Source: Kineococcus siccus (GTDB lineage Bacteria > Actinomycetota > Actinomycetes > Actinomycetales > Kineococcaceae). From it: 48,684 nucleotides of DNA. Positions 1-18,223 of the stretch are shown piece by piece. The notes beneath the pieces were generated by a model, which ran no database searches, was not told where the DNA came from, and saw only the letters and a list, made by a program, of their open reading frames with translations. The DNA lies in assembly GCF_009906795.1 (NCBI RefSeq), contig NZ_JAAALN010000006.1:1-48684 (forward strand), read 5' to 3'. How positions within the stretch are numbered: position 1 is the stretch's first letter; the number at the start of each line of letters is the position of its first letter. The position numbers and the translations under genes are program-made.

Positions 1-1391
1 ACGCTGGTCCCCCCGCTGCCGAGCAGGCTGCGCGTCAGGGTCTCCGCGTCGGAGAGCAGCTCGTCCAGGGCCGTCGCGAGGTCGGCGTCGGACACCTCCC
101 GGTCGTCGGTGGCCGCGAGCAGGACCGCGCGGCGCAGCAGCTCCTTGGTGAAGGACGCGGTCACCCCCGCGCTGCGGGCGGCCGCCGCGTCGAGGGCCGC
201 CGCGGACAGCGGCAGGTCGCGGGCGTACAGCGCCAGCAGGGACCGCCGCGCGGCCTCGTCCGGCAGCGGGACCTCCACGGCGAGGTCGACGCGGCCGGGA
301 CGCTGCGCGAGCGCCGTCTCCAGCCGGTCGGCGCGGTTGGTGGTCAGCAGGAACGCGACGTCGGCGTCACCCTCGAGGCCGTCCATGGCGTCCAGCAGCT
401 CGAACAGCAGCGGCTGCTCGCCCGGGTGCGTGCTGCGGTCCTCCGCGACGAGGTCGCAGTCCTCCAGGACGATGAGGGCCGGCTGCAGGGCGCGCGCCAG
501 GTGCGCGGCCGTCGTGACGTGCGCGAGGGCGCGGCCGGACAGCAGCACGGTCGTCGTCCCGGGCGTGCGGGACAGCAGGTGCCGCACGGTGAGCGTCTTG
601 CCCGTGCCGGGCGGGCCGTAGAGCAGGACCCCGCGCTTGAGGTGCTGGCCCGCGGCGGTCAGCCGCGCGCGCTGCGCGCCGACCCCCACGACGTGCCGGG
701 CGATGCGCTCCAGCGCGCCGGGCGGCAGCACGACGTCCCCGGCCGCGACGTCCGGGCGGCGCAGGAACGTGATGCCGCCGCTGGAGGGGTCGTAGGGGGA
801 CCCGCTGAACGAGACGACCTGCCCCCGCAGGACGCTGCGCTCGAGCATGAGCCGGCGCACCTCCTCGAGCAGGCGGGGTACGACGTCCGGGTCGGCCGCC
901 ACGACCTCCAGGCCCGGCTCGCGGCCGTACTGGCGCTGCGCGGCGCGCTGCAGCACGGCCACCGGCACCCCATCGAAGCGGAGCAGCCGCACGCCGAACG
1001 CGACCGCGCGCCGGTCGGTGTCGGGCCCCGTCGGCAGGTTGACGTGGTCGACGGCCGCGGTCGAGAAGCGGCCGTAGGTGTTGCCCAGCAGGTCGCCGAA
1101 GCTCGAGTGGTGGCGCTGGTCGCCGCCGCCGACGCCGACGACGCGCTCCCCGCCGCCCGCCTCGGCCACGACGCCCAGGGCCACGTCGGCGTCGACGAAC
1201 TGGTGCTCGAGCACGTCCTCGCGCACGACCGGCTGCTGCGTCACCGCCGTCCCCAGGTGCTCCGCGACGACGTCGGCGAGCGCGGGCTCGCCGTCGGCGG
1301 GTTCCGCCCGCGCCCGGTGGACGACCTCCTCGAGGAAGGTGCGGAAGGTCGTGACGAACTGCTGCTGCTCGGGGTCCACGGCGATCATCAT
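1..1391 (-). CDS. AAA+ family ATPase (partial, C-terminus beyond window)
   Basis: The reading frame runs leftward from ATG at 1391 (a second in-frame ATG follows directly) and is still open at base 1, so about 463 residues are visible. The N-terminal 220 or so residues resemble no family I can name. An AAA module follows: Walker A GPPGTGKT at residues 259-266, Walker B LIVLED around 307-312, sensor-1 asparagine in LLTTN near 353, and an arginine-finger motif RPGR near 365-368. This layout fits classical AAA proteins of the FtsH/CDC48/Bcs1-like group, which remodel proteins by ATP hydrolysis; the substrate is unknown. No membrane segment or zinc-protease motif is visible, so it is not FtsH. 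It is transcribed divergently from the leader peptide and flavin monooxygenases to its right. Confidence 0.85.
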   Translation of the reverse strand, partial: MMIAVDPEQQQFVTTFRTFLEEVVHRARAEPADGEPALADVVAEHLGTAVTQQPVVREDVLEHQFVDADVALGVVAEAGGGERVVGVGGGDQRHHSSFGDLLGNTYGRFSTAAVDHVNLPTGPDTDRRAVAFGVRLLRFDGVPVAVLQRAAQRQYGREPGLEVVAADPDVVPRLLEEVRRLMLERSVLRGQVVSFSGSPYDPSSGGITFLRRPDVAAGDVVLPPGALERIARHVVGVGAQRARLTAAGQHLKRGVLLYGPPGTGKTLTVRHLLSRTPGTTTVLLSGRALAHVTTAAHLARALQPALIVLEDCDLVAEDRSTHPGEQPLLFELLDAMDGLEGDADVAFLLTTNRADRLETALAQRPGRVDLAVEVPLPDEAARRSLLALYARDLPLSAAALDAAAARSAGVTASFTKELLRRAVLLAATDDREVSDADLATALDELLSDAETLTRSLLGSGGTS

Positions 1392-1474: not shown

Positions 1475-1480
1475 TAGGGT
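1475..1480 (+). promoter_or_regulatory. -10 box of a leaderless transcript
   Basis: TAGGGT lies seven bases before the GTG at 1488. In Actinobacteria a TANNNT box at this distance implies that transcription starts at or next to the start codon. No convincing -35 hexamer is seen. Confidence 0.5.
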
Positions 1481-1487
1481 CGCGCCT

Positions 1488-1592
1488 GTGGACCGCACGA
1501 GCCTGCGACTGATCCGTCGTGAGCACATCGACCTCTGCCGGGTCGGCTCGTCCTCGTGTCCGGGCTCGTCCCGGTCGCGGCTGCGCCCCTGA
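1488..1592 (+). CDS. putative cysteine-type leader peptide
   Basis: A 34-residue reading frame starting at GTG. Its core RREHIDLCRVGSSSC matches the pattern of the short actinobacterial 'putative leader peptides' (Arg-Arg/His-x-Asp-Leu-x-Arg-Val then Ser/Cys-rich) found upstream of sulfur-assimilation and organosulfur genes. It sits 118 bases before a pair of LLM-class flavin monooxygenases, several subfamilies of which release sulfur from organic compounds. The likely role is as a translated attenuator: slow decoding of its Cys codons would change downstream RNA folding and gene expression. The start is supported by a -10 box seven bases upstream (leaderless). Family resemblance is recognised by eye; the regulatory mechanism is inferred. 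Confidence 0.65.
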   Translation: MDRTSLRLIRREHIDLCRVGSSSCPGSSRSRLRP

Positions 1593-1600
1593 CCCTCGCC

Positions 1601-1683
1601 CCGGCCGCTGCAGGCCGGGCCGGGTCCCCGCGGTGCCGCGCCGGGCGGCGCCCGTCCGCACGCCGCGGCCGGGCGCCGGACCC
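1601..1683 (+). promoter_or_regulatory. GC-rich foldable leader, possible attenuator
   Basis: Between the leader peptide stop and the monooxygenase start are a 6-bp hairpin CCGGCC/GGCCGG (about 1601-1618) and a longer-range inverted repeat GGGTCC (1622-1627) / GGACCC (1678-1683). A cluster of competing stems between a leader peptide and its downstream gene is what an attenuator needs. In such GC-rich DNA stems also arise by chance. Confidence 0.35.
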
Positions 1684-1710
1684 CCGCCCGAGCGGAGCCC
1701 GAGGAGGACC

Positions 1711-4277: not shown

Positions 4278-4305
4278 GGGTGGACGAGCCGGCCTGTAAG
4301 CCGGA
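4278..4305. repeat. left attachment site (copy of rnpB 3' end)
   Basis: A 28-base exact match to 20340-20367. It corresponds to the 3' strand of the P1 stem of RNase P RNA plus adjacent bases, read on the minus strand. Flanks differ immediately: base 4277 is C versus G at 20339, and base 4306 is G versus T at 20368. Confidence 0.92.
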
Positions 4306-4325
4306 GACCGTTCACGCCGAGGCCG

Positions 4326-4366
4326 TGACCTGCGGTGATACAGGACTGCATCGTGCTGACCTGCGG
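4326..4366 (+). promoter_or_regulatory. paired TGACCTGCGG sites next to the left att
   Basis: TGACCTGCGG occurs at 4326-4335 and again at 4357-4366, 31 bases apart (about three helical turns), beginning 21 bases inside the left repeat. A third copy, inverted, lies at 20321-20330 next to the right repeat. The arrangement is typical of arm-type sites for a tyrosine integrase or of excisionase sites. Function is inferred. Confidence 0.5.
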
Positions 4367-4414
4367 TTTCACTTGTCGACGCTTGCCGTCTGTTGGTGGT
4401 GCTAGTCGCTCTCC

Positions 4415-4435
4415 ACTGGACCAGAACTGGACCAG
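4415..4435 (+). repeat. tandem ACTGGACCAG motif near left end
   Basis: ACTGGACCAG is present twice (4415-4424 and 4426-4435), separated by one base. A near copy, ACTGGACCAGGACTGGAC, is at 20279-20296 near the right end, inside the 3' end of the integrase gene; 17 of 18 bases match. It may be a second class of recombination-protein binding site. Confidence 0.4.
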
Positions 4436-4561
4436 CTAGCGGCGCCTGATGCACACCACATGCACCTTGCATCAACTCGTGTGCGTTGACCGCGGGCAAG
4501 GCGACCGACAAGGTGCCCCCGATCACAGGAACCTGCCGGTACCCCTAGACGGAGGACGACC

Positions 4562-4967
4562 GTCACCATCCTCGACGTCGAGACGTGCCAGCACGACGAG
4601 CCCGCCGCCCCGGCCTGGCGACCACGACAATCCCCCGCGACGGCTCGGCCGCTTACCTTGAGGACGAGGTCGTCGAGTGGCGTCACCGCTGCGAGCCCAC
4701 CATCCCGGCCGGCTCTCACCTCGCCCCAGACGCTCGCGCGGTCTGGGTGACTCAGGAAGCGCAGGAGCACGCCCCTCGCAGCTGTCGGGCCGAGGGCGCG
4801 GTGGCCGGTGCCCACTGGAGCGTCGACCCGCTCACGCTCTGCCTCGGCGGCTCGAGGAGCCTGGTGGGGACGTGGTCCTGACCCTAGCCCAGGCCCACGC
4901 GCTGCACGCCGCGCTCGGTCAGGCGCTGGCCGTCACGGTCGGAACGGCCGGCGGCCGCACCCGCTGA
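4562..4967 (+). pseudogene. decayed small reading frame
   Basis: A good ribosome site (GGAGGAC, 4551-4557) is followed by GTC, not GTG, at 4562. From there coding-like sequence appears in three frames in turn: first VTILDVETCQHDEPAAPAW, then EDEVVEWRHRCEPTIPAG through VTQEAQEHAPRSC in the next frame, then LEEPGGDVVLTLAQAHALHA to a stop at 4965-4967. Each part has the high third-position GC expected of a gene, so the simplest reading is one small gene broken by two frameshifts (near 4610 and 4850) and a lost start. Sequencing error could give the same picture. The rest of 4306-4978 holds the att arm motifs and no other gene I can support. Confidence 0.35.
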
Positions 4968-4978
4968 CGAGAACCTCG

Positions 4979-5311
4979 TCAGCGGACGAGGCAGTCGGGT
5001 GCGGCGGCGCGCTTCTCCTCGAGCCAGACGAGGAAGTCGTCGGTCGGGGGATGCCGGGTGACGACGGCTCGGCAGCGCAGCCGCTCCGGGGTCGACTGGA
5101 GCACTTCGGCGACCTCGTGGGTCGCGCCGCGCAGGCTGGTCAAGACGATGCCGAACCCGCGGGGCTCGTCGCCCCAGCCGAGGTCGAGGAGGTCGGCGCG
5201 CTGGTCGCCGCGCAGGCGCGCCCACCAGGCCTCCCAGTCCTGCCCGTCCCACCAGTCGTCGGGGTGTCCATGTAGGAGCGGTGCCACGTCCTGCAGCATG
5301 GCCGCCGGCAC
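4979..5311 (-). CDS. small Trp-rich acidic protein, unknown function
   Basis: About 110 residues from GTG 5311, or about 106 from ATG 5299; the ribosome site does not decide. The protein contains DDWWDGQDWEAWWARLRGDQ and DLGWGDEPRGFGIVLTSLRG, a composition and codon use of a real gene, but I recognise no family. It may be one of the small accessory proteins common at the ends of actinobacterial prophages and satellites. It is divergent from the small gene starting at 5386. Confidence 0.5.
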   Translation of the reverse strand: MPAAMLQDVAPLLHGHPDDWWDGQDWEAWWARLRGDQRADLLDLGWGDEPRGFGIVLTSLRGATHEVAEVLQSTPERLRCRAVVTRHPPTDDFLVWLEEKRAAAPDCLVR

Positions 5312-5385
5312 CGACAAGCCCGTCGAGCTGGACGTTGCCCGGACGGGCGATAGCGGGAGCGGCCGCGCCTGCCGATGAAGACGAC

Positions 5386-5622
5386 GTGCCCCACCTGGAC
5401 CGTCCCCTGTCGCAGGCAAGCCGTCACGCCCGCACCGCGGCCTACGCCCACCGCAGCTCCGCTCCTTGGACGCTGGAGGAAGACGCCGAGCTCGCGGCCT
5501 GCCACGACGACCAGGCCCTAGAGGACTTCGCGCTGCGCTGGTCACGGGGCTTCCGTGCCGTCGAGCAGCGGCGGCGCCGGCCCCGGTCAACCATCAAACG
5601 CACGGGCAATGGCTGGCTCTGA
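5386..5622 (+). CDS. small protein with Myb/SANT-like helix pattern
   Basis: About 78 residues from GTG 5386. The core APWTLEEDAELAACHDDQAL, then EDFALRWSRGFRAVEQRRRR, resembles Myb/SANT-like or GcrA-like DNA-binding modules ('WT.EED..L......L...LGRS..AV..R'). The C-terminus is basic. The start is uncertain because no clear ribosome site precedes it. A role in DNA binding is inference from a short motif. Confidence 0.45.
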   Translation: MPHLDRPLSQASRHARTAAYAHRSSAPWTLEEDAELAACHDDQALEDFALRWSRGFRAVEQRRRRPRSTIKRTGNGWL

Positions 5623-5685
5623 CACTTAGTCGGGCGCGCCACCATCTCCGTCGGCTACGACTTGATGGGTCGTCCAACCGAACCC

Positions 5686-5714
5686 TTGTTCGAGGAGGTG
5701 AGCGGTGGTATATT
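5686..5714 (+). promoter_or_regulatory. promoter with -35, 17-base spacer and -10
   Basis: TTGTTC (5686-5691) and TATATT (5709-5714) are separated by exactly 17 bases, and the -10 box ends seven bases before ATG 5722. This is a good vegetative-type promoter giving a leaderless mRNA. Its AT content stands out in this high-GC DNA. Confidence 0.7.
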
Positions 5715-5721
5715 CCCTGGT

Positions 5722-6351
5722 ATGACATCGCGCCCCGGATCGCAGGAGGTCCTCGACGACCTCGGCGACAAGATCGTGATCGGCCTCGCTACAGCGCTCA
5801 GGGATGCCCGCGAGGACCTGGGTGTGTATCGCGCCGCCCACCCGGGCTGGGTGGCGGATGCCACCAAGCGAGGCCTCGCGAACTGGCTGCACGATCGAAT
5901 CATCGCCCACTGCCGCCGGGAGCTCGAAGACGTCAGCGGGCTTACGGTGGCCCACCGCGAGCCCTTCACCGACATCACCGTGGGCCTGCGGTACCGCATC
6001 CGCGTCAAGAAGCACTCCAAGATCGGTCTGGTGGCGACGTACCCGACTCGGGGAGCGCTGGCCTTCTTCGAGCAGTCAGCGACGCTGTTCAGCGAGATCG
6101 GCCTCGACGAGGTCCGGCTCTGCGTGGGCTACGAGTGGGACGCCGACATGGCCACCATGGGTCAAACTGTCCTGTCCTTGCATGATGGGTATGGCGAACC
6201 GCCGATCTGGATCATTGAACTGCCCGCCGCTCCGCCGCAGGCCGGTACCGCTCCCGTGAGCACCGCCCCGCCGGCACCCGTGCCGGGCCTCCCCACTGTC
6301 ATCGTTTCGCCGAACATCGGCGACAACCGCAAGGAGAACGAAGAAGAATGA
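5722..6351 (+). CDS. unknown protein coupled to XRE-ImmA/IrrE protease (toxin or sensor candidate)
   Basis: A 209-residue protein without a family I recognise. The N-terminal two thirds look globular (VIGLATALRDAREDLGVYRA, then KRGLANWLHDRIIAHCRREL, a beta-rich stretch TVGLRYRIRVKKHSKIGLVA, then LFSEIGLDEVRLCVGYEWD). A Pro/Ala-rich linker (about 175-195) and a charged tail ending KENEEE follow. Start ATG 5722 is chosen because a complete promoter ends seven bases before it; the frame is open further upstream. The stop overlaps the next ATG (ATGA), so the two are translated together. Pairing with a XRE-ImmA/IrrE fusion suggests the protease regulates or cleaves this protein or a repressor, as in toxin-antitoxin-like modules. 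This is inference. Confidence 0.75.
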   Translation: MTSRPGSQEVLDDLGDKIVIGLATALRDAREDLGVYRAAHPGWVADATKRGLANWLHDRIIAHCRRELEDVSGLTVAHREPFTDITVGLRYRIRVKKHSKIGLVATYPTRGALAFFEQSATLFSEIGLDEVRLCVGYEWDADMATMGQTVLSLHDGYGEPPIWIIELPAAPPQAGTAPVSTAPPAPVPGLPTVIVSPNIGDNRKENEEE

Positions 6352-7397
6352 GCAAGCTCGGCGTAGTCATCGAGACGACTCGCCGGGCACGAGGACTCAC
6401 CCAGGCAGAACTGGCAGAAGGTGCCGGGGTTACACAGGCCGCGCTCTCACGATGGGAGAACGACCTCCGTGAGCCTGACGCGGACAACCTTGACCAGTTG
6501 GCCAAAGCACTTGGTGTGACTCCTCGCTTCCTGGCGTACGCAGGCCGCCCTGAAGCCGCTATGGCTGTCGATGCACATATGCGTCGACGCCAGACGGCGA
6601 AGCCCACGGTTTGGCGGCAGCTCGAAGCAGAGCTCAACGTGTTACGGATGCACGCGAGCTTGATCTTCGAGGAAGTGCATCTGCAATCGCAGATGAGGAT
6701 CCCTACGTTCGACCCCATCGAGGTGAGGGCGTCCGACGCTGCGCGGCTCACGCGAATGCAGTGGAGGATGCCTGTTGGTCCGGTGAGGAATGTAGTGCGG
6801 TGGCTGGAAGCTGCAGGCTGCCTTGTCATTGAGCGTGACTTCGGAAACTCCCGCGTGGACGGACTGTCGCAATGGGTTTCCGACACACCAGTGATCTTCA
6901 TGAATAGCTCAGTCCCCACGGACCGCAAGCGGTTGACGATGGCGCACGAACTCGGGCACCTCGTGCTGCATCACGAAGAGATGACTCCATCCTTGGAAGA
7001 TGAGGCGAATGAGTTCGCCGCTGAATTTCTGATGCCGATGGAAGTCATCCGACCCCAGCTACGGTCGTTGAAGATTGCTCGTCTTGGTGACTTGAAGCGC
7101 GAATGGGGAGTCTCAATGCAAGCCTTAGTGGAGCGGGCATACCGAGACGACTTGATGACCAAGGAAGCGCGAACAAACTTCTACAAAACCATGTCCATCC
7201 GCGGATGGCGGACGGTGGAACCGTTTAGTGACGAACTACCGCCGGAAGAGCCAGAGTTGCCCGCCTACATCGGCAAACTACTGATTGAGCGTGGCCTGAC
7301 TCCAGATGACGTCGCTCAGATGGCAGGGTTCGATAGTGCTCGCAACAACGTGCTCCTGCCGATCTCGACTGCGACGCGTCATATGCGCTTGGTCTGA
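6348..7397 (+). CDS. XRE-family regulator fused to ImmA/IrrE zinc peptidase
   Basis: A 349-residue protein. Residues 4-60 form a Cro/CI-type helix-turn-helix (TRRARGLTQAELAEGAGVTQ and following WEN). An ImmA/IrrE (COG2856) peptidase domain follows, with HELGH at 200-204 and the downstream ligand in EANEFAAEF near 219-226, so the zinc site looks intact. The C-terminal 60 or so residues include a second short LTPDDVAQMAGF helix motif. Such fusions bind DNA and cleave a partner or repressor; they occur in mobile-element regulators and toxin-antitoxin-like pairs. Overlap with the upstream gene as ATGA marks a two-gene operon. It lies away from the element's own repressor and integrase, so it is more likely cargo than the master switch. 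Confidence 0.88.
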   Translation: MSKLGVVIETTRRARGLTQAELAEGAGVTQAALSRWENDLREPDADNLDQLAKALGVTPRFLAYAGRPEAAMAVDAHMRRRQTAKPTVWRQLEAELNVLRMHASLIFEEVHLQSQMRIPTFDPIEVRASDAARLTRMQWRMPVGPVRNVVRWLEAAGCLVIERDFGNSRVDGLSQWVSDTPVIFMNSSVPTDRKRLTMAHELGHLVLHHEEMTPSLEDEANEFAAEFLMPMEVIRPQLRSLKIARLGDLKREWGVSMQALVERAYRDDLMTKEARTNFYKTMSIRGWRTVEPFSDELPPEEPELPAYIGKLLIERGLTPDDVAQMAGFDSARNNVLLPISTATRHMRLV

Positions 7398-7628
7398 GGC
7401 TCGTCGACTCCGGCCGCAACATCTGGTGAGGCTACCCGCCAATTAGTCGTGATCAGTCGTGCTTTCCGCTCATCAGCTGACAACCGAGCGGACACCACCC
7501 GGGGCACCGTTTGGGCCCCGTCGCGAGTAGGCGGACCAACCACGTGACTGCGTGGGCTGAGCGGGGCATGCCCAAGTCGCTCGGCGCTATCAGCGACTAC
7601 TGACCCCGCCTATGCCAGGACTGTCAGG

Positions 7629-7829
7629 TCAGGCGCCAGCTATTCCAGTGTTCTTGAATCCCAGCCCAAGACAGCCAGGCGTCGGACATGTCCGCGTCTC
7701 GCTAAAGGTGTCAATAGGGCTTTGGTCGAGGGTGCCGGTGACGGTGATGACCTCCTCCTGCAGGACTGCACTGCACAGGGGGCAGCGACGCCCCTCACGG
7801 TCGGGGATCATCCGGCGGTGATTCGTCAT
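7629..7829 (-). CDS. small zinc-ribbon protein
   Basis: 66 residues with two Cys pairs, CPLC at 16-19 and CPTPGC at 48-53, the layout of a small treble-clef or zinc-ribbon protein. The ATG at 7829 has no ribosome site, but TAGCGT lies eight bases before it on the minus strand, consistent with a leaderless mRNA. It lies 58 bases downstream of the small terminase gene in the same direction. Function unknown; nucleic-acid binding is plausible. The opposite-strand frame over the same bases lacks any recognisable pattern. Confidence 0.55.
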   Translation of the reverse strand: MTNHRRMIPDREGRRCPLCSAVLQEEVITVTGTLDQSPIDTFSETRTCPTPGCLGLGFKNTGIAGA

Positions 7830-7887
7830 GTGTCGGAACGCTAGCGAATTTCTCAGCGCGCCGTGCCCGTTCCGCCATGCGAAGTCG

Positions 7888-8322
7888 TCACGTCAAGGCA
7901 CTTCGATGACGCTCCAGCGTCGTGACGCCCTCCGGCAGCGCTGCTACCTCCGGCGTCGTGTGCAACCGCCGCAGCTCGACTCGCAGGCGTCGGCGGGCTC
8001 CCTCTGAAACGAGGTGATCGCTGAGGATGGAGTGCAACGCCTGCAGGTCCTGCCCGGCTATCCGCCCCGCCGCAACCTTCGAGGTCAGGAACCACATCGC
8101 CACCGCGACCTCCGCCCAGTCCGAGGGCTCAAAGTACTGCGCCTGTCCGGAGGAGCCCATCGCCTCCCACAGCGCCACGGCCTGCCGGCACCAGGTCGGG
8201 TCCGCCGCCGGCTGCTCGACGACCGCGGCCCCGTCGGCCCTCTCCACGCGCGCGGCGTCCGCCTTTGACTGGTGGCCGAGCCGCTCCTCCGACCGCTTCG
8301 GCACCGGGCCTCGCCCCGGCAT
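7888..8322 (-). CDS. phage terminase small subunit (TerS)
   Basis: 144 residues. The start MPGRGPVPKRSEERLGH and the later SSGQAQYFEPSDWAEVAVAM, with the closing VTTLERHRS, match the actinophage small terminase pattern ('GPVPKRS..R', 'SGQ..YYEPSDWA.A', '...EGARRR.R.EL'). TerS recognises the pac/cos site and hands DNA to the large terminase for packaging. No large terminase, portal or capsid gene is present in the element, so this is an orphan. Phage-inducible satellites keep their own TerS to redirect a helper phage's packaging machinery, which is the likely role here (inference). A GGGGGA ribosome site lies about eight bases before ATG 8322. Confidence 0.8.
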   Translation of the reverse strand: MPGRGPVPKRSEERLGHQSKADAARVERADGAAVVEQPAADPTWCRQAVALWEAMGSSGQAQYFEPSDWAEVAVAMWFLTSKVAAGRIAGQDLQALHSILSDHLVSEGARRRLRVELRRLHTTPEVAALPEGVTTLERHRSALT

Positions 8323-8579
8323 CAGCCAAGTCCCCCGCTCGACCCTGTGACCCGGGCGCGGTCCCGGGCCCTATGCGCTCCGGTACTGCTGTCGACGGGA
8401 GGGAGGGGGTCCCCGGCGGGGTTCCCGTGCGCTCCCGCTGAGCCGTCTGGCGTCCGGACCCTTATTCCACTACTTATGATCAATTCTCTAGCTCCTCATG
8501 CTTGAGTGAGGCGCCTGGTCAATATGGCCCCGAGCGCAGCGCTTCTCTGACTTACACGGCAATGGTATTAGAGGCTCAG

Positions 8580-9227
8580 CTACTTCAATGCGCGGACTGG
8601 TTGATCGCCGACTACGAGGTCCTGCACAGGGTCCCAGCGCTCCTGAACCTTATCGGCTTTACCTGAAATCGTGACAGCTCGACGTATACCGCGAGCATTC
8701 TTTGCGGCAATGGTTAAATTCAAACAGTAGGAGCCTTGACCCGGCAGTCGCGCCGCGTTGTCGATGTTTAGTCGTCTTTGGTCGATATTTCTAGCAAGAA
8801 CGAAGGTAGCAGCGCCCTTTTCGCTGGTGTATCGCAGCAGATCGATCCGCCTAGAAGAACCAGCAGGTATCGTCTCCGTGATCTCCCGGGTGTGGCTCCA
8901 CTTTACGAAGACCGAGAATCGTCTCGGGAACGGCTCGTAGTCTCGATGGGTATGGTTACCCTCACCAACGACCTCGATGGAGTCGACGATTACCTGCACG
9001 TCTTCAGCGGCATCACGACGACCTTGGTTCCGAATGACGAGAGTGACCCATAACTCTTGGCCGATCTCAGGCTCCGGCCTACGGCTAGCGGACAAAGACT
9101 CAGTAGGGTTGATCCACGCGGCTTCCAGCCGAGGGCGATTGACCCATGGTCGAATCTGTTGTCCAAATAATGCCAGCCCAACTGCCACCAAACTGCCACT
9201 TGCGCTAAACCATTGCGGCTCGACCAA
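8580..9227 (-). CDS. membrane-anchored protein of unknown function
   Basis: 215 residues. One N-terminal membrane segment (about residues 8-25, SGSLVAVGLALFGQQI) is followed by a soluble, mostly beta-type domain with repeated strand patterns such as LWVTLVIRNQGRRDAAEDVQ, typical of immunoglobulin-like folds with 'NQG...A..V.V' edges. The start is TTG 9227 with GAGGTG seven bases upstream. Base composition is less GC-rich than host genes. I do not recognise the family. Its place in the cargo block among likely defence genes makes a membrane sensor or effector possible, but nothing shows this directly. Confidence 0.65.
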   Translation of the reverse strand: MVEPQWFSASGSLVAVGLALFGQQIRPWVNRPRLEAAWINPTESLSASRRPEPEIGQELWVTLVIRNQGRRDAAEDVQVIVDSIEVVGEGNHTHRDYEPFPRRFSVFVKWSHTREITETIPAGSSRRIDLLRYTSEKGAATFVLARNIDQRRLNIDNAARLPGQGSYCLNLTIAAKNARGIRRAVTISGKADKVQERWDPVQDLVVGDQPVRALK

Positions 9228-9653
9228 GTTCGTTCACCTCACGATTGAGATCGATGGCGGTCCGGCTCTTATATACACAGTAGTACGAACGTGCCTGCGT
9301 CGTGCGCCACAACAAGAGCTTTACTGCCGTAACCACCTGAGCAAGGGCAGTGAGAGGCAGGACTCCATGCGCAGCTTTGGTCTTCGCATCACCTACCGTC
9401 GGCGAGCCGCGGGCGCTGCTGCCCGACGAGACCGAAGCTGACCTCCACACAGAGGACGGCCCGCACCCGACCACTGCCGGCTCCGTTACGCGAAGGTCGC
9501 TCTCAAGATCTGTATCGCTCGACTGAGGTCCTGTGCTGACTTAAAGACGGTCTCGTAGAGCATGTGGCAGCATCGCTTGTCGAGGTGGCGGGCGATCATT
9601 GCGGTGCGCAGGCACAACTAGACTGCACGTCATCAACTGAAGGTAGGAGGAGA
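9228..9653 (+). promoter_or_regulatory. divergent intergenic region with candidate promoter for the MazG-HNH operon
   Basis: 426 bases between the divergent unknown membrane gene and mazG-like gene. TAGACT at 9619-9624 is a candidate -10 box for the rightward operon, 29 bases before its start, leaving room for the ribosome site GGAGGAG. No -35 box at the right distance is convincing. I see no further gene here. Confidence 0.3.
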
Positions 9654-10016
9654 ATGAGTTTCCGCGAATTACAATCGTCCCTAAACAGCTTCGCGCGCGA
9701 GCGGGATTGGGAGCAATTCCACACCCCTAAGAATCTGATCATGGCGCTGACCGGCGAAGTTGGCGAGCTCACCGAGTTGTTTCAGTGGCTGACCCCTCAG
9801 GAATGTGAGGCGGTGGCAGTTAACGAAGTGCAACGGGTGCGCGTGGCCGAGGAGATGGCCGACATTCTTGCCTACTTGCTTCGCTTGGCCGACGTCCTGA
9901 GTATTGACCTTGAAGCGGCCTTGAAGGCGAAGATTGTCGTCAACGAACAGAAGTACCCCGTGGATCGGTCCCGGGGCAACGCCCGTAAGTACACTGACTA
10001 CGAGGAGCAGTCTTGA
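9654..10016 (+). CDS. MazG-like nucleotide pyrophosphohydrolase
   Basis: 120 residues, the size of single-domain MazG-like/RS21-C6 (dCTPase) proteins, all-alpha NTP pyrophosphohydrolases. The Mg-binding motifs are present: EVGE at 35-38 and E67-x-x-D70 in AEEMADIL. The start ATG 9654 has GGAGGAG just upstream. The stop overlaps the next start as TTGA, so it is translationally coupled to a HNH endonuclease with a PUA/EVE-like domain. Family members hydrolyse non-canonical or signalling nucleotides; with a nuclease partner in a mobile element, a defence role (nucleotide depletion or alarm clearance) is a reasonable inference. Confidence 0.88.
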   Translation: MSFRELQSSLNSFARERDWEQFHTPKNLIMALTGEVGELTELFQWLTPQECEAVAVNEVQRVRVAEEMADILAYLLRLADVLSIDLEAALKAKIVVNEQKYPVDRSRGNARKYTDYEEQS

Positions 10017-10990
10017 GGCGCGTCATCCTGCAACCGGCTGGTAACGCGGGTGCACGCAAGCACTACGCCGACACGATCGCTACGCCGGTTCCCCTACAGG
10101 AGAATGCACAACTTCTTGGAGTGGACTACCAGTCACTCGTCAAGCTTTATCCGTCGGGAGCAGCCCCCCTTTGGGGTGCTACGACAGGCGAGAAGGACAT
10201 CAACGTAGGTCGTTACGACCGCATGAGTACGGGCGATTACGTTATGTTCGCCGCTGAGGGGCGAATCTTCCGTGGCGGTACGGTGACCCGCAAGTTCCGC
10301 AATGCAGGACTCGCCACCAAGCTGTGGGGCACCGACGACAGGAATCGCACTTGGGAGCTGATGTTTGCGGTCGACGAACTCCGACACTTCGATCTGCCGT
10401 ACGCCGACTTCAACCAGATCGTAGGGTACAAGGCGAATAACGTAATTCAAGGGTTCAGTGTCCTTGACGAGACACGAAGCGCACTCCTATTCGACCAACT
10501 GTCCCTCGACAGTGACACCTATCCGTCGACACCAACCGTCGGAGCGCTACAGAACCTTCTGGCGGGACTGAAGGGCGAGACCGAACGAGAAGTTAAAGGT
10601 GTGCAACGGCTTGAACAAGGCCTACTACGCCGGCACCTCTTACCTTCGCTTGAAGGTCGATGTGACCTCTGCGGGCGTGACTTCCCGGCGCAGATGCTGA
10701 TCGCGGCCCACATTAAGAAGCGCGCCGCTTGCTCTACCTGGGAGCGGCTAGACATCCCCGCTATCGCAATGCTCGCGTGCAAGTTTGGCTGCGACAGTCT
10801 ATTTGAGGAAGGATACATCAGCGTCGACACTGCAGGTTCCATTCTTATTAGCGACCTGGCTCAGCCGTCCACCGCTCTTGATGCCTATCTGAATATGTTG
10901 GCCGGTCGGAAGTGCTCTGCGTGGCGACCTGACCGAGCCGCGTATTTTGGGTGGCATTTCAATCACACCTTCAAAATGTCACTCGCTTAA
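10013..10990 (+). CDS. HNH endonuclease with N-terminal PUA/EVE-like domain
   Basis: 325 residues from TTG 10013, overlapping the previous stop by four bases. Residues about 45-160 fit a PUA-superfamily (EVE/ASCH-like) fold: YDRMSTGDYVMFAAEGRIFR, VTRKFRNAGLATKLWG, WELMFAVDELR, GYKANNVIQGFSVLDE. The C-terminal HNH-type domain has CDLC at 217-220, AAHIKKR with H233, and ACKFGCDSLFEEGYISVD around 255-272, where the usual second HNH histidine region is Cys-rich. EVE-like domains read modified bases, so the protein may cut modified phage DNA as a type IV-like restriction enzyme. The coupled MazG-like gene suggests one two-gene system. The domain call for the N-terminus is by eye. Confidence 0.78.
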   Translation: MRRVILQPAGNAGARKHYADTIATPVPLQENAQLLGVDYQSLVKLYPSGAAPLWGATTGEKDINVGRYDRMSTGDYVMFAAEGRIFRGGTVTRKFRNAGLATKLWGTDDRNRTWELMFAVDELRHFDLPYADFNQIVGYKANNVIQGFSVLDETRSALLFDQLSLDSDTYPSTPTVGALQNLLAGLKGETEREVKGVQRLEQGLLRRHLLPSLEGRCDLCGRDFPAQMLIAAHIKKRAACSTWERLDIPAIAMLACKFGCDSLFEEGYISVDTAGSILISDLAQPSTALDAYLNMLAGRKCSAWRPDRAAYFGWHFNHTFKMSLA

Positions 10991-11172
10991 GCAAGTCATG
11001 ATCGAGTCGACGGGCAGGGAAGGCTGCGCTAGGTCGCGCCGTCGCGGCTCACCTCGGCACCCGCGACCATGCGCGCTACGGTAAATTGCCGTCTGAACCA
11101 CGTAGACAGGTCGTCAATCATTCGACTCGACATAAGTTCCTGGGCTTATGGAAGACACATTTGGAGGCAGCC

Positions 11173-12495
11173 ATGGGTGCTCGGTGGCGGCTGTATAAAG
11201 AGGGCAAGCAATTGCAGTGGGGGAAGAACTTTGTCCCTGCTCGGCTTCTTAGCCTTTTCGTTGAGGCGGAGAAGTATGTTGACACGAAATGGTTGCTAGC
11301 CCACGATCTGGAGAACACTTCGATTGACGTCATAGTATGCGAGGAAGAACAGATGGAGGAGGCCGCGGCCTACATAGAGCGAACACCCCCGAGGGAAATC
11401 TTTGGATACCGTGCACCTGTTGCGGTGGTTAAGCAGCGGCTTGATCTCATGGGATTCACAAGCGGCGCTTGCAAGGAAGAGGTGGTCACCCTTCTCCGAG
11501 AGGTGTACGAAACCGACCAGTTCGAGATTCCCTCAGCACAAGGAGAGGGCGAGGCGCGAATCCCCTACGAGGCGGCTTTGGAGACGGCACTCTCGGCCCT
11601 CCTTAAAGTCCAGGACGAAACGGGCGCCCCCCATAGACTGACTGCTATCGAGGACGCCTGCCTTGACGCTTTAGAGCCCTACTTAGGCAGCGAGGCCGAC
11701 CATAGAACCCTGCTGGCTCTCCAATTGTCAACCATGGACCCCGCCCATATTTTGTCCGTCGATCTGCACGACCTCATGCTGTCGGGGTACTTCGCAGTTG
11801 AGGATGCTGTCGCACAAGTGGCTTTCGACGAGTTGACCCAGGAGTTGTCAAGCACGGGCCCAGTCATCGTAGTCACCGAAGGTTCTAGTGACGCGGATTT
11901 GCTGCAGCGCATGCTGCGTATTACGGCGCCGGCTGTCGCAGACTTCTTCCGGTTCTTGGACTATACCGGGAAGCCAGCCGGGGGCGTAGATCACGTCGTC
12001 AAGACGCTCCGTAGTTTCTCTGCAGCCGGCGTTACGAATCGAGTCATTGGCGTCCTCGATAACGACGTCGCTGGGCGGATTGGCGACCGCACGCTTAGAT
12101 CTGCGCCACTGAGACCTACTATCAAGTGGATTATGCTGCCCGATGTCCCCTACGCACAGAATTATCCTACTCTGGGCCCGGCCGGTGAGGGACGAGACGA
12201 CGTCAACGGCTGCGCCGTGTCTATCGAGTTCCAATTCGGGGAGGATTGTCTACGCGGCGCCGACGGCCAACTGACGCCCATCCAATGGTCAAAAGGCGAC
12301 AAAAGCTTGAATGCTCGCCAAGGAGAACTCTCGGACAAGAGGGCTGTGAAACGCCGAATCACTGCCATGTTGCAATCAATCACCTCAGGTGGTGGAAAGA
12401 GTCCGACGCCATGGCCGCCGATGCATGCGCTGACGGAAGCTCTGATAGACGCGGCAAAGGCAGCTGGTGAGTCGGGGTCTAGTGCAAGCTTTTGA
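11173..12495 (+). CDS. HEPN/Toprim-type protein, likely defence effector
   Basis: 440 residues from ATG 11173, chosen because GGAGG lies five bases-plus upstream and because HEPN/Toprim N-terminal domains begin in this way (MGARWRLYKEGKQLQWGKNF resembles 'MG.Y..L...G..L.W.KN'). The N-terminal half is helical. A Toprim domain follows, with the glutamate in VIVVTEGSSDADLL (E236) and the DND motif in VIGVLDNDVAG (296-298). Toprim cores coordinate Mg and cut nucleic acid, and in OLD- and Gabija-like proteins act in antiphage defence. Here no ATPase partner is adjacent, so it may act alone. The function in defence is inference from domains and location. Confidence 0.75.
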   Translation: MGARWRLYKEGKQLQWGKNFVPARLLSLFVEAEKYVDTKWLLAHDLENTSIDVIVCEEEQMEEAAAYIERTPPREIFGYRAPVAVVKQRLDLMGFTSGACKEEVVTLLREVYETDQFEIPSAQGEGEARIPYEAALETALSALLKVQDETGAPHRLTAIEDACLDALEPYLGSEADHRTLLALQLSTMDPAHILSVDLHDLMLSGYFAVEDAVAQVAFDELTQELSSTGPVIVVTEGSSDADLLQRMLRITAPAVADFFRFLDYTGKPAGGVDHVVKTLRSFSAAGVTNRVIGVLDNDVAGRIGDRTLRSAPLRPTIKWIMLPDVPYAQNYPTLGPAGEGRDDVNGCAVSIEFQFGEDCLRGADGQLTPIQWSKGDKSLNARQGELSDKRAVKRRITAMLQSITSGGGKSPTPWPPMHALTEALIDAAKAAGESGSSASF

Positions 12496-13069
12496 CGCTG
12501 CCCACATAAGCATGTCTCCCGTCGAGTGACTGCTCTAAACATCAAGCAGCACGACGCACGTTCAGTCGTCTTCTCAGTGAGTAACGTCGACGGTTGGTGA
12601 ACTTCAATCCAGACTTTACACATAAGGGAGCGCCGCCAAAGCGCAAAGGGCACCCGTCTCACGGCCGACGCCTTTCACTAAAGTGCCAATGGCTAAGGGT
12701 CGACAGAGCGAGGCGCTAGATTTGGCTGTCGCTCAGTCCGGACAGCAGTGGCGGCACTCAGGCTTACAAGCGAAGCGGCATCGCAACTGATCGCGCCGGC
12801 TGCCTGCAATGTGGGGTCCCCTCCCGTGGGTCGGTTACCTTCCCGGTGACGCGCCTCGCAAGGGTCAACGATTGCACTTCCCACTGTTGTCCCAGCACTC
12901 CGCAGCCGCGCTTAGGTAAGGATGGCCTCGGTTATGGGGTGGTTCCGACGCTCGAGCCACCCGCTAGTCCGCACGCCAGCGCGCGACCTGGAGGTCACCG
13001 GGCAGGGTCTCGCCGACGGGGGTGGAGGAAGGGTGGCAGTGACGGCTGGCAAGATGCCACTCTTCCGGC
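12496..13069. other. 574-base gap without a supported gene
   Basis: Short frames on both strands here lack family resemblance, ribosome sites and coding-like composition. The stretch probably holds the promoter of the pentapeptide-repeat gene starting at 13070, but I see no clear -35/-10 pair, terminator or repeat. Confidence 0.4.
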
Positions 13070-14578
13070 ATGACAGACGCCAGAGGGTCAAAGCCGGCGG
13101 GTAAGAACCCACACTCCGAGGAAGTGAGTGCCGACGCCCCAGGATCCGACGAGTCTCCAGAGGCTTGGCGTACCCTTGGCACCGCCCGAGGCGCTGTTAC
13201 CGCGCTACTCGTGTTGGGCGTACTGGCCGGACTTGCAGTCGCGGCTCTTTGGCTGGTCCCTGAGCAGCTTAATCGGCGTGCCTTTTCCACCCCCGCCGAA
13301 CGGGCCGTTGCGGTCAACGCTGCTCGCATCCCTGCCGCCGCCGTCTTCGCCGCAGCTATCGCCGCCCTTGGCGTGTGGGTCAATCATGGCAACGTGACGG
13401 TCGCACGCGTAGCTCTAAAGCAGACACGAAGTCGGGATTTGGAGACTACCCGCCTGACTGAGGCCGCGCAACGAAACGACAGATTTGTGCGAGCAATCGA
13501 ACTCATTAACGACGACCAGCAGCTGAATGCTCGACTTGGGGGACTATATGCCCTCGAACAACTCATGCGCGAATCGCCGAAGATCTACTACGCGACGATT
13601 GTAGACGTCTTGGCCGCCTATATTCGGCACCGGGCTCCTTGGCCGCCTCAATCCGCCACCGAAGCCATCCGCGCTGAGTCCTACGTGCCACGGTGGCGAC
13701 GCCTAATGTCGAAACACACGCCCCGACCTTTCAATGACGTCCAGGTTGCGTTGACTATTCTCGGACGCCGCGCTCACTTAGACAGTCTCCCCGCTTCCGA
13801 CCGCGGCAACTTGGACCACCACAAGATTGATCTGAGCGGCACCAACCTCCGAGGCGCTGACCTAACTGACGCTTATTTGGTCAGGGTCGACTTGTCCCGC
13901 TCCCATCTGGAGGGCGCCAACCTGCGGCGGGCATGCCTCACGGCTGCCAATCTTCACGAAGCGCACTTGACGACCGCGACGCTAGATGGCGCAGATCTCC
14001 GAAAAGCTCGGCTGACCGGAACAAGACTGCAGGGCGCTAGATTGAATGGCGCACTTCTTCAGCAGGTGGACTTGCACGACCGGCAACTCCTGGGGACCCG
14101 CTTGAATGGGGCCCACCTGGAAGGCGCGAATTTGCGGGGCGCATGGATGGGGTTCGCAGAATTGAGGGGGGCGCACCTGCAGGGAGCGGACTTGACCGCA
14201 GCTGGTCTCAGTTCGGCCGACTTGAGAGGCGCGGACCTCACCGAAGCAATCCTTACGATGGCCTCTTTGAACAACTGTGTACTCACGGCAGCTAAAGTAA
14301 AGAACGCCGACTTCACCTCGGCGAAGTTATTCTACGCAGAGCTAACCGAGCTAGACATGGGTCAGGCTGAATTGGGTGGCGCGCAGATGATAGGCGCTGC
14401 ATTCGGCGGCACCCAGCTCGTTGAAACGAAAGGGTTAACGTGGGGGCAGGTCATGTCGATTCAGGGCGACGGTAGAACGACCCTACCGTCCACGCTCAGA
14501 GGTCCCAACGGTGAACTTCGACCCAACCACTGGCCGGCAGAAGATCACAACCGAGCGCTAAGCGAAACTCAAACTTAA
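13070..14578 (+). CDS. membrane-anchored pentapeptide-repeat protein
   Basis: 502 residues. Two membrane segments near the N-terminus (about 41-63 and 85-105), a helical region (about 115-235), then pentapeptide repeats of the A(D/N)LxxA type from about 250 to 440 (examples: GTNLRGADLTDAYL, GANLRRACLTAANL, GADLTAAGLSSADLRGADL). These form a right-handed square beta-helix. Membrane-anchored proteins of this form are widespread in Actinobacteria with unknown function; some pentapeptide proteins mimic DNA or act in antiphage systems. The ATG at 13070 lacks a strong ribosome site. It ends the rightward cargo genes. Role in the element unknown. Confidence 0.8.
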   Translation: MTDARGSKPAGKNPHSEEVSADAPGSDESPEAWRTLGTARGAVTALLVLGVLAGLAVAALWLVPEQLNRRAFSTPAERAVAVNAARIPAAAVFAAAIAALGVWVNHGNVTVARVALKQTRSRDLETTRLTEAAQRNDRFVRAIELINDDQQLNARLGGLYALEQLMRESPKIYYATIVDVLAAYIRHRAPWPPQSATEAIRAESYVPRWRRLMSKHTPRPFNDVQVALTILGRRAHLDSLPASDRGNLDHHKIDLSGTNLRGADLTDAYLVRVDLSRSHLEGANLRRACLTAANLHEAHLTTATLDGADLRKARLTGTRLQGARLNGALLQQVDLHDRQLLGTRLNGAHLEGANLRGAWMGFAELRGAHLQGADLTAAGLSSADLRGADLTEAILTMASLNNCVLTAAKVKNADFTSAKLFYAELTELDMGQAELGGAQMIGAAFGGTQLVETKGLTWGQVMSIQGDGRTTLPSTLRGPNGELRPNHWPAEDHNRALSETQT

Positions 14579-14780
14579 TCTCGTTTACCGCCACCTCGGC
14601 ACTCGTGACACAGCCGCCGCGGTGCCTCCCCTGGTGCGGCGTATGAGGCAGCCGAACTCGTACCTTTCGTTAGTTCAAGTAGGGAGGAGGCGCGACTGCT
14701 ACTTGCCCTATTCGGTCATGCGGTATTAGAATGCGCGCAGTTCTGCAGTCGCCGTGAATTACGACCTGCACTTGCGTGCG

Positions 14781-15428
14781 CTAAGAGTAGTTCATAGGCG
14801 CCGGGATCGCCGCGTCGCTCGCCTGTGCCAGTGCCTCGATGACGCCGTCGGTCAAAGAAGCGATCTCGATAGGCTTCGCCGGCCGGAACAGGGCCCCGTC
14901 GATGAAGTTGTCCTGGATGCTGGGCGCCGCGACGCTGACCAGCTCCTGCAACTGTGGTGCCGCGTCCGGTCGCGCCTCGAGCCACAGGTCCATGACCTCC
15001 GACCAGCCCGCCGAACCGATCGGCGCCTGAGCCTGGGTGTGGGCGACCTCCGCGATCGCGTTGGCGAGGGTCATGTCACCGTTGCGCAGCGCCCGGGCCA
15101 TCACGGCCTGCGCCTGCGCGGGCTTCGCGGCCAGCTGCGTGGCGCGGTCCTCGGCGTCTCGACGGGAGATCGCGTCCTGCTGGCCGTCGCGGTCGCTCGT
15201 GCCGAACAGCTGGCGCTCCAGCTGCCGCGCGGTCTGCGCCGCCCGCCCGTTCATCTCCGCCTGCAGCTGCGCGAGCTCCTCGCGGTGTTGGGTGAAGAGC
15301 CGGGCCAGCGCACGCGCCTTACCCGCGTCGCTGAGGTTCGGGTTCGCCTGCACCTTCGCCACTTGGCGCTCCGCGCGCTGGCGGGCGGTGTCCGCTGCGG
15401 TGCGCCATGTCGTCTTGTCGAAGCTCAT
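14781..15428 (-). CDS. phage-like coiled-coil protein (possible scaffold-type)
   Basis: 215 residues. The N-terminal half is a long charged helix (TARQRAERQVAKVQANPNLS, DAGKARALARLF, REELAQLQAEM), which resembles proteins encoded near terminase/portal genes of actinophages ('..A...ANP.LSD.GK.R....'). The C-terminal half is helical and acidic. The start ATG 15428 has AGGAGGA upstream. It is the last gene of the element's leftward core operon, 16 bases after the HTH gene. No structural phage gene accompanies it. A scaffold or capsid-redirecting role is possible for a satellite, but this is speculation from resemblance. Confidence 0.6.
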   Translation of the reverse strand: MSFDKTTWRTAADTARQRAERQVAKVQANPNLSDAGKARALARLFTQHREELAQLQAEMNGRAAQTARQLERQLFGTSDRDGQQDAISRRDAEDRATQLAAKPAQAQAVMARALRNGDMTLANAIAEVAHTQAQAPIGSAGWSEVMDLWLEARPDAAPQLQELVSVAAPSIQDNFIDGALFRPAKPIEIASLTDGVIEALAQASDAAIPAPMNYS

Positions 15429-15444
15429 CAGCTGGTCCTCCTGT

Positions 15445-15861
15445 TCAGGCCGCCGTGCGGCGATTCGCGAACTCCTGCAGGTCCCCGACGGTCACAACCC
15501 ACCGGCCGGCCTCGCGGTGACCGCGAAGCCGGCCGGCCTCTAGGAGCTGCCGAACGCGCCGAGCCGAGCACCCCAGCTGTTCCGCTGCCTGCCCTGTCGT
15601 AACCGTGCCCTGCCACCCTGCCTGCTCGACGTCGGGCTTCCGCGGTTCGCTTCCGTCTGCGGAAGTCGCCGCGGAAGCGGCCGCACGCATCGCCCCATGG
15701 CGCAGCGCCAGCAGGACCGAGTCGACGGCCGCGTTCTCACCGCGCACAGCCACCCGCAGCCTCGACAGATCCAGCCGCCGATCCAGCAGCAGTGCGACCT
15801 CATCCGGCACGAGCACGCACGGGCCATGCAGGTAGGCCGCCCAGTGCGTCGGCCCGATCAC
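15445..15861 (-). CDS. MerR/excisionase-type helix-turn-helix protein
   Basis: 138 residues from GTG 15861, overlapping the WhiB-like stop as GTGA. Residues 86-125 are a helix-turn-helix of the excisionase/MerR type (TVTTGQAAEQLGCSARRVRQ then LLEAGRLRGHREAGRWVV). The N-terminal 60 residues (LVPDEVALLLDRRLDLSRLR) have no clear match. It likely binds DNA as an element regulator. A second, shorter excisionase-like protein is at 18220-18432, so this one may regulate replication or packaging genes rather than excision. Confidence 0.7.
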   Translation of the reverse strand: MIGPTHWAAYLHGPCVLVPDEVALLLDRRLDLSRLRVAVRGENAAVDSVLLALRHGAMRAAASAATSADGSEPRKPDVEQAGWQGTVTTGQAAEQLGCSARRVRQLLEAGRLRGHREAGRWVVTVGDLQEFANRRTAA

Positions 15862-16148
15862 GACGCCCGCCGCCGGGGCAGCGCGGCACGCTTTACCCCC
15901 CCACAGACGCCGTCCCGCTCACCGGCCTCGGCCGCGTGCCGCCCGCACGGATCCAGCAGCGGACACCGGGCGCACACCTGCGCCGCGACCTCCGCGGCCA
16001 GCTCATCGCGACGATCCACCGGCCACCACGCCTCCGGTGACGCAGCGCACGGCGGCGGCCCGTGCTCCTCCAAGGCGGCGGTCACCTTCTGCCACTGCGA
16101 CAAGTCGTGGTCGGGAACGCCGGGGTAGGAAGCGGCTCGGCCGGTCAC
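15858..16148 (-). CDS. WhiB-family iron-sulfur regulator, divergent
   Basis: 96 residues from GTG 16148. The four cluster-binding cysteines are present: C34, then C59-x-x-C62-x5-C68 (QVCARCPLLDPC). The usual G(V/I)WGG turn that contacts sigma factor is GVCGG at 80-84, so the conserved Trp is replaced by Cys. Basic residues follow (VKRAALPRRR), as in DNA-binding tails of the family. WhiB-like proteins occur in many actinophages and tune host or phage transcription via the primary sigma factor. The frame stays open upstream across low-complexity repeats, but the family pattern supports the short start. It overlaps the HTH gene by four bases. Confidence 0.8.
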   Translation of the reverse strand: MTGRAASYPGVPDHDLSQWQKVTAALEEHGPPPCAASPEAWWPVDRRDELAAEVAAQVCARCPLLDPCGRHAAEAGERDGVCGGVKRAALPRRRAS

Positions 16149-16249
16149 GGGAGTCGAGCCTCCTGCAGGGGTGGGACTGGGCCAGCAACGGCGGGGACCA
16201 CCGGGCCGTCCGTGGGCATGCTTCTGGTGTCCCCGGGGTGGTGCTCCCC

Positions 16250-16277
16250 TGGTCCCCTCCCTAGAGGTCGGGGACCA
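16250..16277. repeat. 8-bp inverted repeat beside the iterons
   Basis: TGGTCCCC (16250-16257) and GGGGACCA (16270-16277) form a perfect stem over a 12-base loop. It lies between the WhiB-like gene and the 20-bp tandem repeats, and could be part of a replication origin, an operator, or a terminator. Confidence 0.45.
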
Positions 16278-16301
16278 CGGGAACACCGGAAGGAGGTAGT
16301 C

Positions 16302-16361
16302 CCGGGGAGGACTGGGGATGACCGGGGAGGACTGGGGATGACCGGGGAGGACTGGGGATGA
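16302..16361. repeat. three exact 20-bp tandem repeats, iteron-like
   Basis: The unit CCGGGGAGGACTGGGGATGA is present three times without change (16302-16321, 16322-16341, 16342-16361), ending ten bases from the stop codon of the RepA-like ATPase. Direct repeats of 18-22 bp, about two helical turns, next to a replication gene are the form of plasmid and satellite iterons. There are no spacers, so it is not a CRISPR. Confidence 0.65.
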
Positions 16362-16371
16362 CCGACCCGAG

Positions 16372-17625: not shown

Positions 17626-17939
17626 GCGGAGAATCTCAGCGAGTAGTCGTGCGCGACGTCGGTCACGACGCCGAACATCGGGTCGCAGGTCTGCTGGCGC
17701 AGCGCGCTGAACCAGCGGGTGAGCGTCGCGGGGTCGTCGGCGTGCACCTGCACCGAGCCGACCCGCGAGGCGCACAGGACGTCGACGACGCGCTGGTCGG
17801 GGTAGCCGCGGTCGACGAGGAGTTCTACGGTGCAGCCGGCCGGGGCGGTGACGACGGCGGCGTGCGTGAGCTGGATGGCGCCTCGGCCGCGGCGGGCCCG
17901 TGCGCGCACGTCGATGCGCAGGGTGGCGCTGACGTTCAT
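17622..17939 (-). CDS. small element protein, unknown
   Basis: 105 residues from ATG 17939, with GGAGG five bases upstream (the GTG at 17945 overlaps that site and is rejected). The start overlaps the previous stop as ATGA and the stop overlaps the ATPase start as GTGA, so it sits in a tightly coupled operon. Contains alternating strands and helices (AVVTAPAGCTVELLVDRGYP). No family recognised. Confidence 0.7.
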   Translation of the reverse strand: MNVSATLRIDVRARARRGRGAIQLTHAAVVTAPAGCTVELLVDRGYPDQRVVDVLCASRVGSVQVHADDPATLTRWFSALRQQTCDPMFGVVTDVAHDYSLRFSA

Positions 17940-18223
17940 TCGCACCTCCGGATGTAGACCGCGGCGAGGCCGACGCCTAGGGACACGACCTCCGAGCGCT
18001 CTCGAACGTGCGTGGCTGCGACGAGGACCTGGTCGCCGTCGATGCGCAGGACGGTGGGTGAGGCGTCGGCGTCGAGGCCGTCGACGAAGTCGGTGAGGGT
18101 CACCGGTCGCGGCGTCTGGAGGTCGTCGGGGGTGGCTAAGACGCTCGGGGTGACGGTGGCGGCAACCTCGTCATGGGCGGTCCCAGGCTGCGGCGTGGGG
18201 CCGCTCCTTGGTACGGCCCTCAT
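17936..18223 (-). CDS. small element protein, unknown
   Basis: 95 residues from ATG 18223, overlapping the excisionase stop as ATGA. The N-terminal 40 residues are Pro/Thr-rich; the rest (TLTDFVDGLDADASPTVLRI, DGDQVLVAATHVRE) looks like a compact alpha/beta unit. No family recognised. Position in the excisionase-to-ATPase operon suggests a part in replication or its control. Confidence 0.65.
   Translation of the reverse strand: MRAVPRSGPTPQPGTAHDEVAATVTPSVLATPDDLQTPRPVTLTDFVDGLDADASPTVLRIDGDQVLVAATHVRERSEVVSLGVGLAAVYIRRCE

Follow-up and report, generated by a model that had tools for sequence, protein, structure and literature searches.

A conserved leader peptide with a putative regulatory UGU cysteine codon ahead of a luciferase-like monooxygenase pair in Kineococcus siccus

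In Mycobacterium smegmatis, leaderless short ORFs with contiguous Cys codons attenuate downstream genes through the cysteine-dependent speed of elongation (Canestrari et al. 2020, as given in PMC9031893 and PMC13236596), and mycobacterial leader candidates before cysA2 and nirA had been noted earlier (PMC4633059). A further described system is the cysS attenuator uORFC-8-2 of the Rhodobacterales, which carries tandem Cys codons, mostly UGC, together with an intrinsic terminator, and for which ribosome-mediated attenuation has been proposed (PMC8632094). The leader described here resembles the mycobacterial polycysteine ORFs (Ms5788A/cysA2 and Ms4527A/nirA), which precede sulfur operons, in being a short, putatively leaderless ORF with Cys codons near its end. 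In contrast to these ORFs, however, the class to which it belongs has no contiguous Cys tract but one regulatory Cys, nearly always encoded by UGU, at a fixed distance from an RxH[VI]DLxR motif, and the leader itself precedes a pair of luciferase-like monooxygenase (LLM) genes. With uORFC-8-2, which lies upstream of a cysteine-related gene, it shares Cys codons in the leader, while differing in its single UGU and in having no terminator. The family NF042934 (cis_reg_atten, "putative leader peptide") has the same motif and Cys position, and its entry names no signal or mechanism. SAM and SAM-IV riboswitches (RF00162 and RF00634), which are cis-acting sulfur sensors, lie directly before sister leaders, whereas none is found at this one. 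As the leader lacks a polycysteine tract and misses both NCBIfam cut-offs (NF042934, given below, and the Ms4527A profile NF042936, where it scores 17.1 against a cut-off of 45), we regard it as a variant of the polycysteine attenuators rather than a member, and it most likely works as they do. A literature search of the searchable papers returned nothing on the RxH[VI]DLxR leader motif or on a riboswitch-leader tandem.

The window, that is, the whole stretch of 48,684 nucleotides that was analysed, is contig C462 of a genome of 4.58 Mb in 495 contigs. In it, the leader sits between a divergent AAA ATPase gene and the LLM pair (Table 1), and its 34-residue frame (1488-1592) reads VDRTSLRLIRREHIDLCRVGSSSCPGSSRSRLRP. 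A preliminary description of this DNA had proposed a 34-residue frame with the leader pattern RREHIDLCRV...C, a -10 box seven bases ahead of its GTG and two LLM monooxygenases downstream, and all of these were found: the motif is present, the TAGGGT box stands where it was placed and would imply a leaderless transcript, and the two genes match TIGR03860, one of them as a divergent relative. The peptide has two separated Cys residues, Cys17 (TGC, 1536-1538) and Cys24, and a tail of 10 codons after Cys24, while most leaders of the class stop within 4 codons. NF042934 matched residues 7-24 at 22.4 bits (E 7e-5), below its curated cut-off of 27 bits, and when it was run on six frames of the whole genome the window match had an E of 0.0018, with only about five places equal or near. 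A small profile made from other leaders of the genus gave the leader frame 11.3 bits, more than any other place in the window, yet it scored up to 12.4 bits on 40 shuffled windows; the peptide match alone is thus only moderate, and the genus profile was rejected as too weak to stand as proof of the peptide. Nor is the open frame itself evidence, since the same reading frame runs for 529 codons without a stop, on the strand opposite the ATPase gene.

Table 1. Features of the leader region and its flanking genes (window coordinates)
Feature	Position	Strand	Basis
AAA ATPase gene (proteasome-activating-nucleotidase/FtsH-like domain), divergent from leader	3-1391	-	window; also in G009
-10 box TAGGGT (TAnnnT), 7 nt upstream of GTG 1488	1475-1480	+	sequence
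Leader peptide frame of 34 aa, from GTG to TGA	1488-1592	+	sequence; NF042934 22.4 bits; ortholog conservation
Core motif RxHIDLxR-5aa-C; His codon 1524-1526, Cys 11 residues on	1518-1559	+	class-wide pattern match
Ser codons TCG TCC TCG just before Cys24, complementary to Shine-Dalgarno of first LLM gene	1548-1556	+	predicted longer fold
Cys24 codon TGT, presumed regulatory	1557-1559	+	class-wide TGT counts
GC-rich gap with predicted folds	1593-1710	+	folding against shuffles
Shine-Dalgarno GAGGAGG of first LLM gene	1701-1707	+	sequence
First LLM gene, divergent NtaA/DszA-like, 394 aa	1711-2895	+	TIGR03860 171.5 bits, under cut-off 279.7
Second LLM gene, NtaA/DmoA-family FMN-dependent monooxygenase, 445 aa	2892-4229	+	TIGR03860 443.6 bits, over cut-off 279.7; PF00296

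What makes the window leader convincing is its conservation and its genomic place rather than its peptide score. In the genus mate G009, whose first LLM protein is 82% identical to that of the window, promoter, start, peptide and stop are all kept, with TAGGCT at nearly the same place as TAGGGT. The two leader frames differ at 7 of 105 nt (2, 0 and 5 at the three codon positions) and are thus 93% identical, against 84% for the surrounding stretch, while the gap between leader and LLM gene is 43 nt shorter in G009 (75 against 118 nt). Seven further genus mates (G001, G002, G004, G005, G006, G007 and G008) carry a leader of the form TAnnnT-6 nt-GTG before the homologous LLM pair, three of them over the NF042934 cut-off (G008, 28.2 bits; G007 and G004, 27.4 bits each), so that the leader, far from being absent in close relatives, is found at this place in eight other members of the genus. 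The same leader also recurs before homologous monooxygenase operons elsewhere: among 110 loci chosen solely by similarity to the first LLM protein, 29, the window included, have a leader of the class just upstream, and these extend to Saccharopolyspora, Streptomyces, Kitasatospora and Frankia-type genomes. On the reverse strand of the same loci there was one, itself leader-like. Across the class (Actinomycetes), NF042934 matched at E <= 0.001 in 144 of a sample of 198 genomes, in 128 of them over the cut-off, with no match in 14 named control genomes. At the level of sequence, the leader is thus confirmed as a real feature.

We consider it probable, on the sequence comparisons given here, that the window leader is a cysteine-responsive, ribosome-mediated attenuator that uses one UGU codon to control the LLM pair. 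The transcript would start at or beside GTG 1488, and the leader, being leaderless, would be translated at once. When charged Cys-tRNA is scarce, the ribosome would pause at Cys24 (UGU) and cover leader bases immediately upstream that can base-pair with the Shine-Dalgarno site ahead of the first LLM gene; both monooxygenases would then be made. When cysteine is plentiful, the ribosome would finish and leave, and the RNA would fold over the Shine-Dalgarno site. The LLM enzymes would in this way free sulfur from an organosulfur compound only when it is needed. We infer leaderless initiation in this strain, the pause and its dependence on cysteine; likewise, control would act on translation rather than through Rho, and cysteine would be expected to change LLM expression.

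The choice and position of the Cys codon are constrained in this class. In the LLM-selected loci, where spacing was not required in the search, the distance from His to Cys was 11 in 40 of 45 Cys-bearing leaders, and none of the shuffles had it. Across 73 distinct leaders, the motif residues are nearly invariant but the third bases of their codons are not, a pattern that points to peptide-level selection. In 69 of these 73, the Cys at +11 is TGT, whereas all 17 Cys that these peptides have at +4 are encoded by TGC (Fisher p 6e-15); the third base is G or C in 76-98% at every other motif codon against 7% at the +11 Cys codon, and TGT makes up 1.4% (genus) or 9.5% (named loci) of the Cys codons in nearby genes. 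A class-wide pattern search of 198 genomes returned 314 TGT matches in 128 genomes, across 55 genera, and 5 TGC matches in 5 genomes (1 and 3 matches, respectively, for the reversed-pattern controls), counts that overstate the significance as matches in related genomes are not independent. TGC is tolerated, since a few TGC leaders occur even in the genus (L130 and L133). We favour the reading that a wobble-decoded UGU makes the pause more sensitive to charged tRNA-Cys, and the near-absolute use of UGU in GC-rich genomes makes it possible to ask directly if an attenuator owes its sensitivity to wobble decoding by tRNA-Cys.

The same constraints can be read in another manner, in which RxH[VI]DLxR would act from within the exit tunnel to pause the ribosome while UGU occupies the A site; the peptide, jointly with the codon, would then sense cysteine or another sulfur metabolite, as opposed to simple codon starvation. 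The class-wide retention of the peptide motif, at a fixed spacing of 11 residues from the Cys codon, speaks for such nascent-chain arrest, as does the point that simple starvation would call for no conserved peptide, and a few leaders have a stop codon at the Cys register. However, the fixed spacing may reflect common descent without indels, and the stop-codon variants are very few (1 TAG and 3 TGA class-wide), a handful which led us to reject stop-for-Cys replacement as a common variant. On balance, we find arrest by the nascent chain doubtful as the main explanation.

With regard to the RNA, the preliminary description had pointed to foldable DNA after the leader, and this holds for the gap but less so for the leader and gap together. 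Only 1 of 200 shuffles folded as well as the 121-nt stretch after the leader (1593-1713; z -3.2), whereas the fold of leader plus gap is less special (z -1.7). In the minimum free energy structure of the gap alone, the Shine-Dalgarno bases are predicted to pair with an upstream GGUCC; in the predicted fold of leader plus gap, their partners are the Ser codons at 1548-1556, which would be covered by a ribosome paused at Cys24. A modelled ribosome at Cys24 changed Shine-Dalgarno accessibility in the window from 0.22 to 0.25, no more than did blocks elsewhere in the leader, while a modelled ribosome at the Cys codon raised it from 0.16 to 0.47 in G009, from 0.02 to 0.41 in G001 and from 0.18 to 0.35 in G005. 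In all, accessibility rises in 7 of 8 orthologs and falls in G002. Structural support in the window is thus weak, and the mechanism at the RNA level is no more than suggested.

That the window fold shows no clear stall-dependent release of the Shine-Dalgarno site, and that gap length varies among orthologs (118 against 75 nt), would also suit transcription attenuation, in which translation of the leader would control whether transcription stops early within the gap, through Rho or otherwise, and not access to the Shine-Dalgarno site. We regard this as unlikely, as no intrinsic (U-tract) terminator was found in the gap and PMC13236596 describes the nearest relatives that have been studied as attenuators of translation. 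The remaining alternative, that the frame regulates nothing and merely arises from the GC-rich sequence of a divergent promoter region, can point to the long open antisense frames common in the region and to a genus-profile score (11.3 bits) within reach of shuffles, but is highly improbable given that promoter, start, peptide and stop are kept in orthologs, that the leader recurs before the same operon in other genera and that TGT is so constrained. A hairpin at the stop codon (TGACC...GGTCA), noticed by eye in the orthologs, was also considered as a general feature and rejected, since of 48 leaders only 5 reached p <= 0.05, with a mean z of 0.2, although repeated instances occur within the LLM-pair and FAD-binding clades.

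The preliminary description had linked the leader and the monooxygenases to sulfur, and the genes behind the sister leaders, identified with NCBIfam and Pfam, agree with this. The leader at L188 precedes a NirA-type sulfite/nitrite reductase, phosphoadenylyl-sulfate reductase (cysH), CysD, CysN and siroheme synthase, and at L190 the leader is the same and the genes are arranged similarly; both stand before their own sulfite reductase operon, as does the mycobacterial nirA/Msmeg_4527 leader (PMC4633059). Other leaders precede an O-acetylhomoserine/O-acetylserine sulfhydrylase (L165), an LLM with a DszC/SfnB-like flavoenzyme (L166), oligopeptide/nickel-type ABC transporters (L157, L163 and L182; the L157 operon, which was checked, ends in an LLM), sugar-type ABC transporters (L160) and FAD-NAD(P)-binding proteins (L158 and L164). 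Together with the sufS and sufU genes in LLM operons and the SAM riboswitches in front of many leaders, these neighbours make a sulfur or cysteine role of the leader class well supported by genomic context. If the attenuator works as proposed, cysteine-responsive leader control would extend from the cysteine-biosynthesis genes of mycobacteria to the scavenging of organosulfur in another genus of actinobacteria, and RxH[VI]DLxR-5aa-Cys (UGU) could serve as a marker for operons under sulfur control in genomes that lack annotation. Another type of leaderless leader was observed before genes for an FAD-NAD(P)-binding protein (PF13454; L164, L168, L172, L179, L185, L187 and L191). The sequence around its stop codon (CTGAGGA) is complementary to bases next to the Shine-Dalgarno site downstream.

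The riboswitches divide the leaders of the genus in two. Among the 37 leaders catalogued, the window leader and the LLM leader of G002 included, 19 have a TAnnnT promoter, and each of the 18 that remain follows a riboswitch of the SAM (RF00162) or SAM-IV (RF00634) family on its own strand at a distance of 5-80 nt, while no leaderless-type leader of the genus does (a Fisher test in which the latter are conservatively counted as 17 gives p 2e-10, with related genomes not independent). Examples of such tandems are L158 7725-7914, L160 19083-19298, L177 7012-7204 and L181 2518-2707, and in the window's own genome L167 3481-3710 and L169 9683-9896. Sub-threshold leaders also lie behind SAM riboswitches, at L170 in the window's own genome and at L176, L178 and L193, and in another family of the order SAM-IV stands ahead of a leader (L229). 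At the window leader there is no riboswitch, nor any Rfam family at leader or gap. Most of the SAM aptamer matches end in ...GATGGAGG or ...GATGGGAG, 5-11 nt ahead of the leader start, and in most tandems the last bases of the aptamer resemble the leader's Shine-Dalgarno site, so that the closing helix would hide that site with SAM bound. If the tandem works as it looks, expression would follow only when SAM and cysteine are both low, and the SAM riboswitch and cysteine leader would form a natural AND gate of an aptamer and a sensing ORF. A broader, tentative reading takes in the class as a whole: its leaders may sense cysteine at an obligate, wobble-read UGU placed 11 residues after a tunnel-acting RxH[VI]DLxR, and in the genus many of them may be under the control of a SAM or SAM-IV riboswitch that lies upstream and can mask the leader's ribosome-binding site with its last helix. 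Sulfur scavenging would then be switched by two inputs, SAM and cysteine, and the window would hold the cysteine-only form. What is most likely to surprise a specialist is the UGU constraint and the tandem of riboswitch and leader.

Leader-like peptides lacking Cys were also observed. At L174 (~16912, +) and L183 (~17645, +), such peptides (RRHVDLxRQSSAL) lie directly behind SAM riboswitches. RxHIDLxR leaders with no Cys and a stop codon exactly at the Cys register were seen at L175 (~8947), L189 (~9084), L084 (~3662) and L094 (~4118), all on the minus strand; those at L175 and L189 precede genes for SDF-type symporters (Na+:dicarboxylate family), and the one at L084 has SAM-IV upstream.

Concerning the enzymes, the two LLM genes share a 4-nt overlap. 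The first LLM protein gave no match in a Pfam search and has as its PDB relatives 3sdo and DszA (5tlc), while the solved relatives of the second are 3sdo (nitrilotriacetate monooxygenase), YtnJ, DszA and dimethyl-sulfide monooxygenase. From these relatives of the second protein and the sulfur genes behind sister leaders, an organosulfur substrate for the pair, as had been suggested, is plausible.

The surroundings of the pair vary within the genus. The divergent AAA ATPase gene has a counterpart at L162 (3280-4704, -), likewise divergent from a leader, and elsewhere in the genus an acetate--CoA ligase gene takes the divergent position (at L159 and, judged by sequence, at L173 and L184). In L159 (5325-7883), L173 (8629-11187) and L184 (5735-8281), the LLM-pair operon is extended by DUF1684, a SufS-type cysteine desulfurase and SufU, an order established by family search for L159 and by sequence for L173 and L184, while the window operon stops after the second LLM gene. 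A RidA-like gene lies 3' of the LLM pair in G009 and is missing from the window. In the window, the pair is followed by an element of about 16 kb (4278-20367), not present in G009. It is located where the RNase P RNA gene (minus strand, 20343-20728) has its 3' end, carries a phage-type integrase (19131-20312) and an HTH/IrrE-like gene (6348-7397), and is bounded by a 28-bp direct repeat (4278-4305 and 20340-20367).
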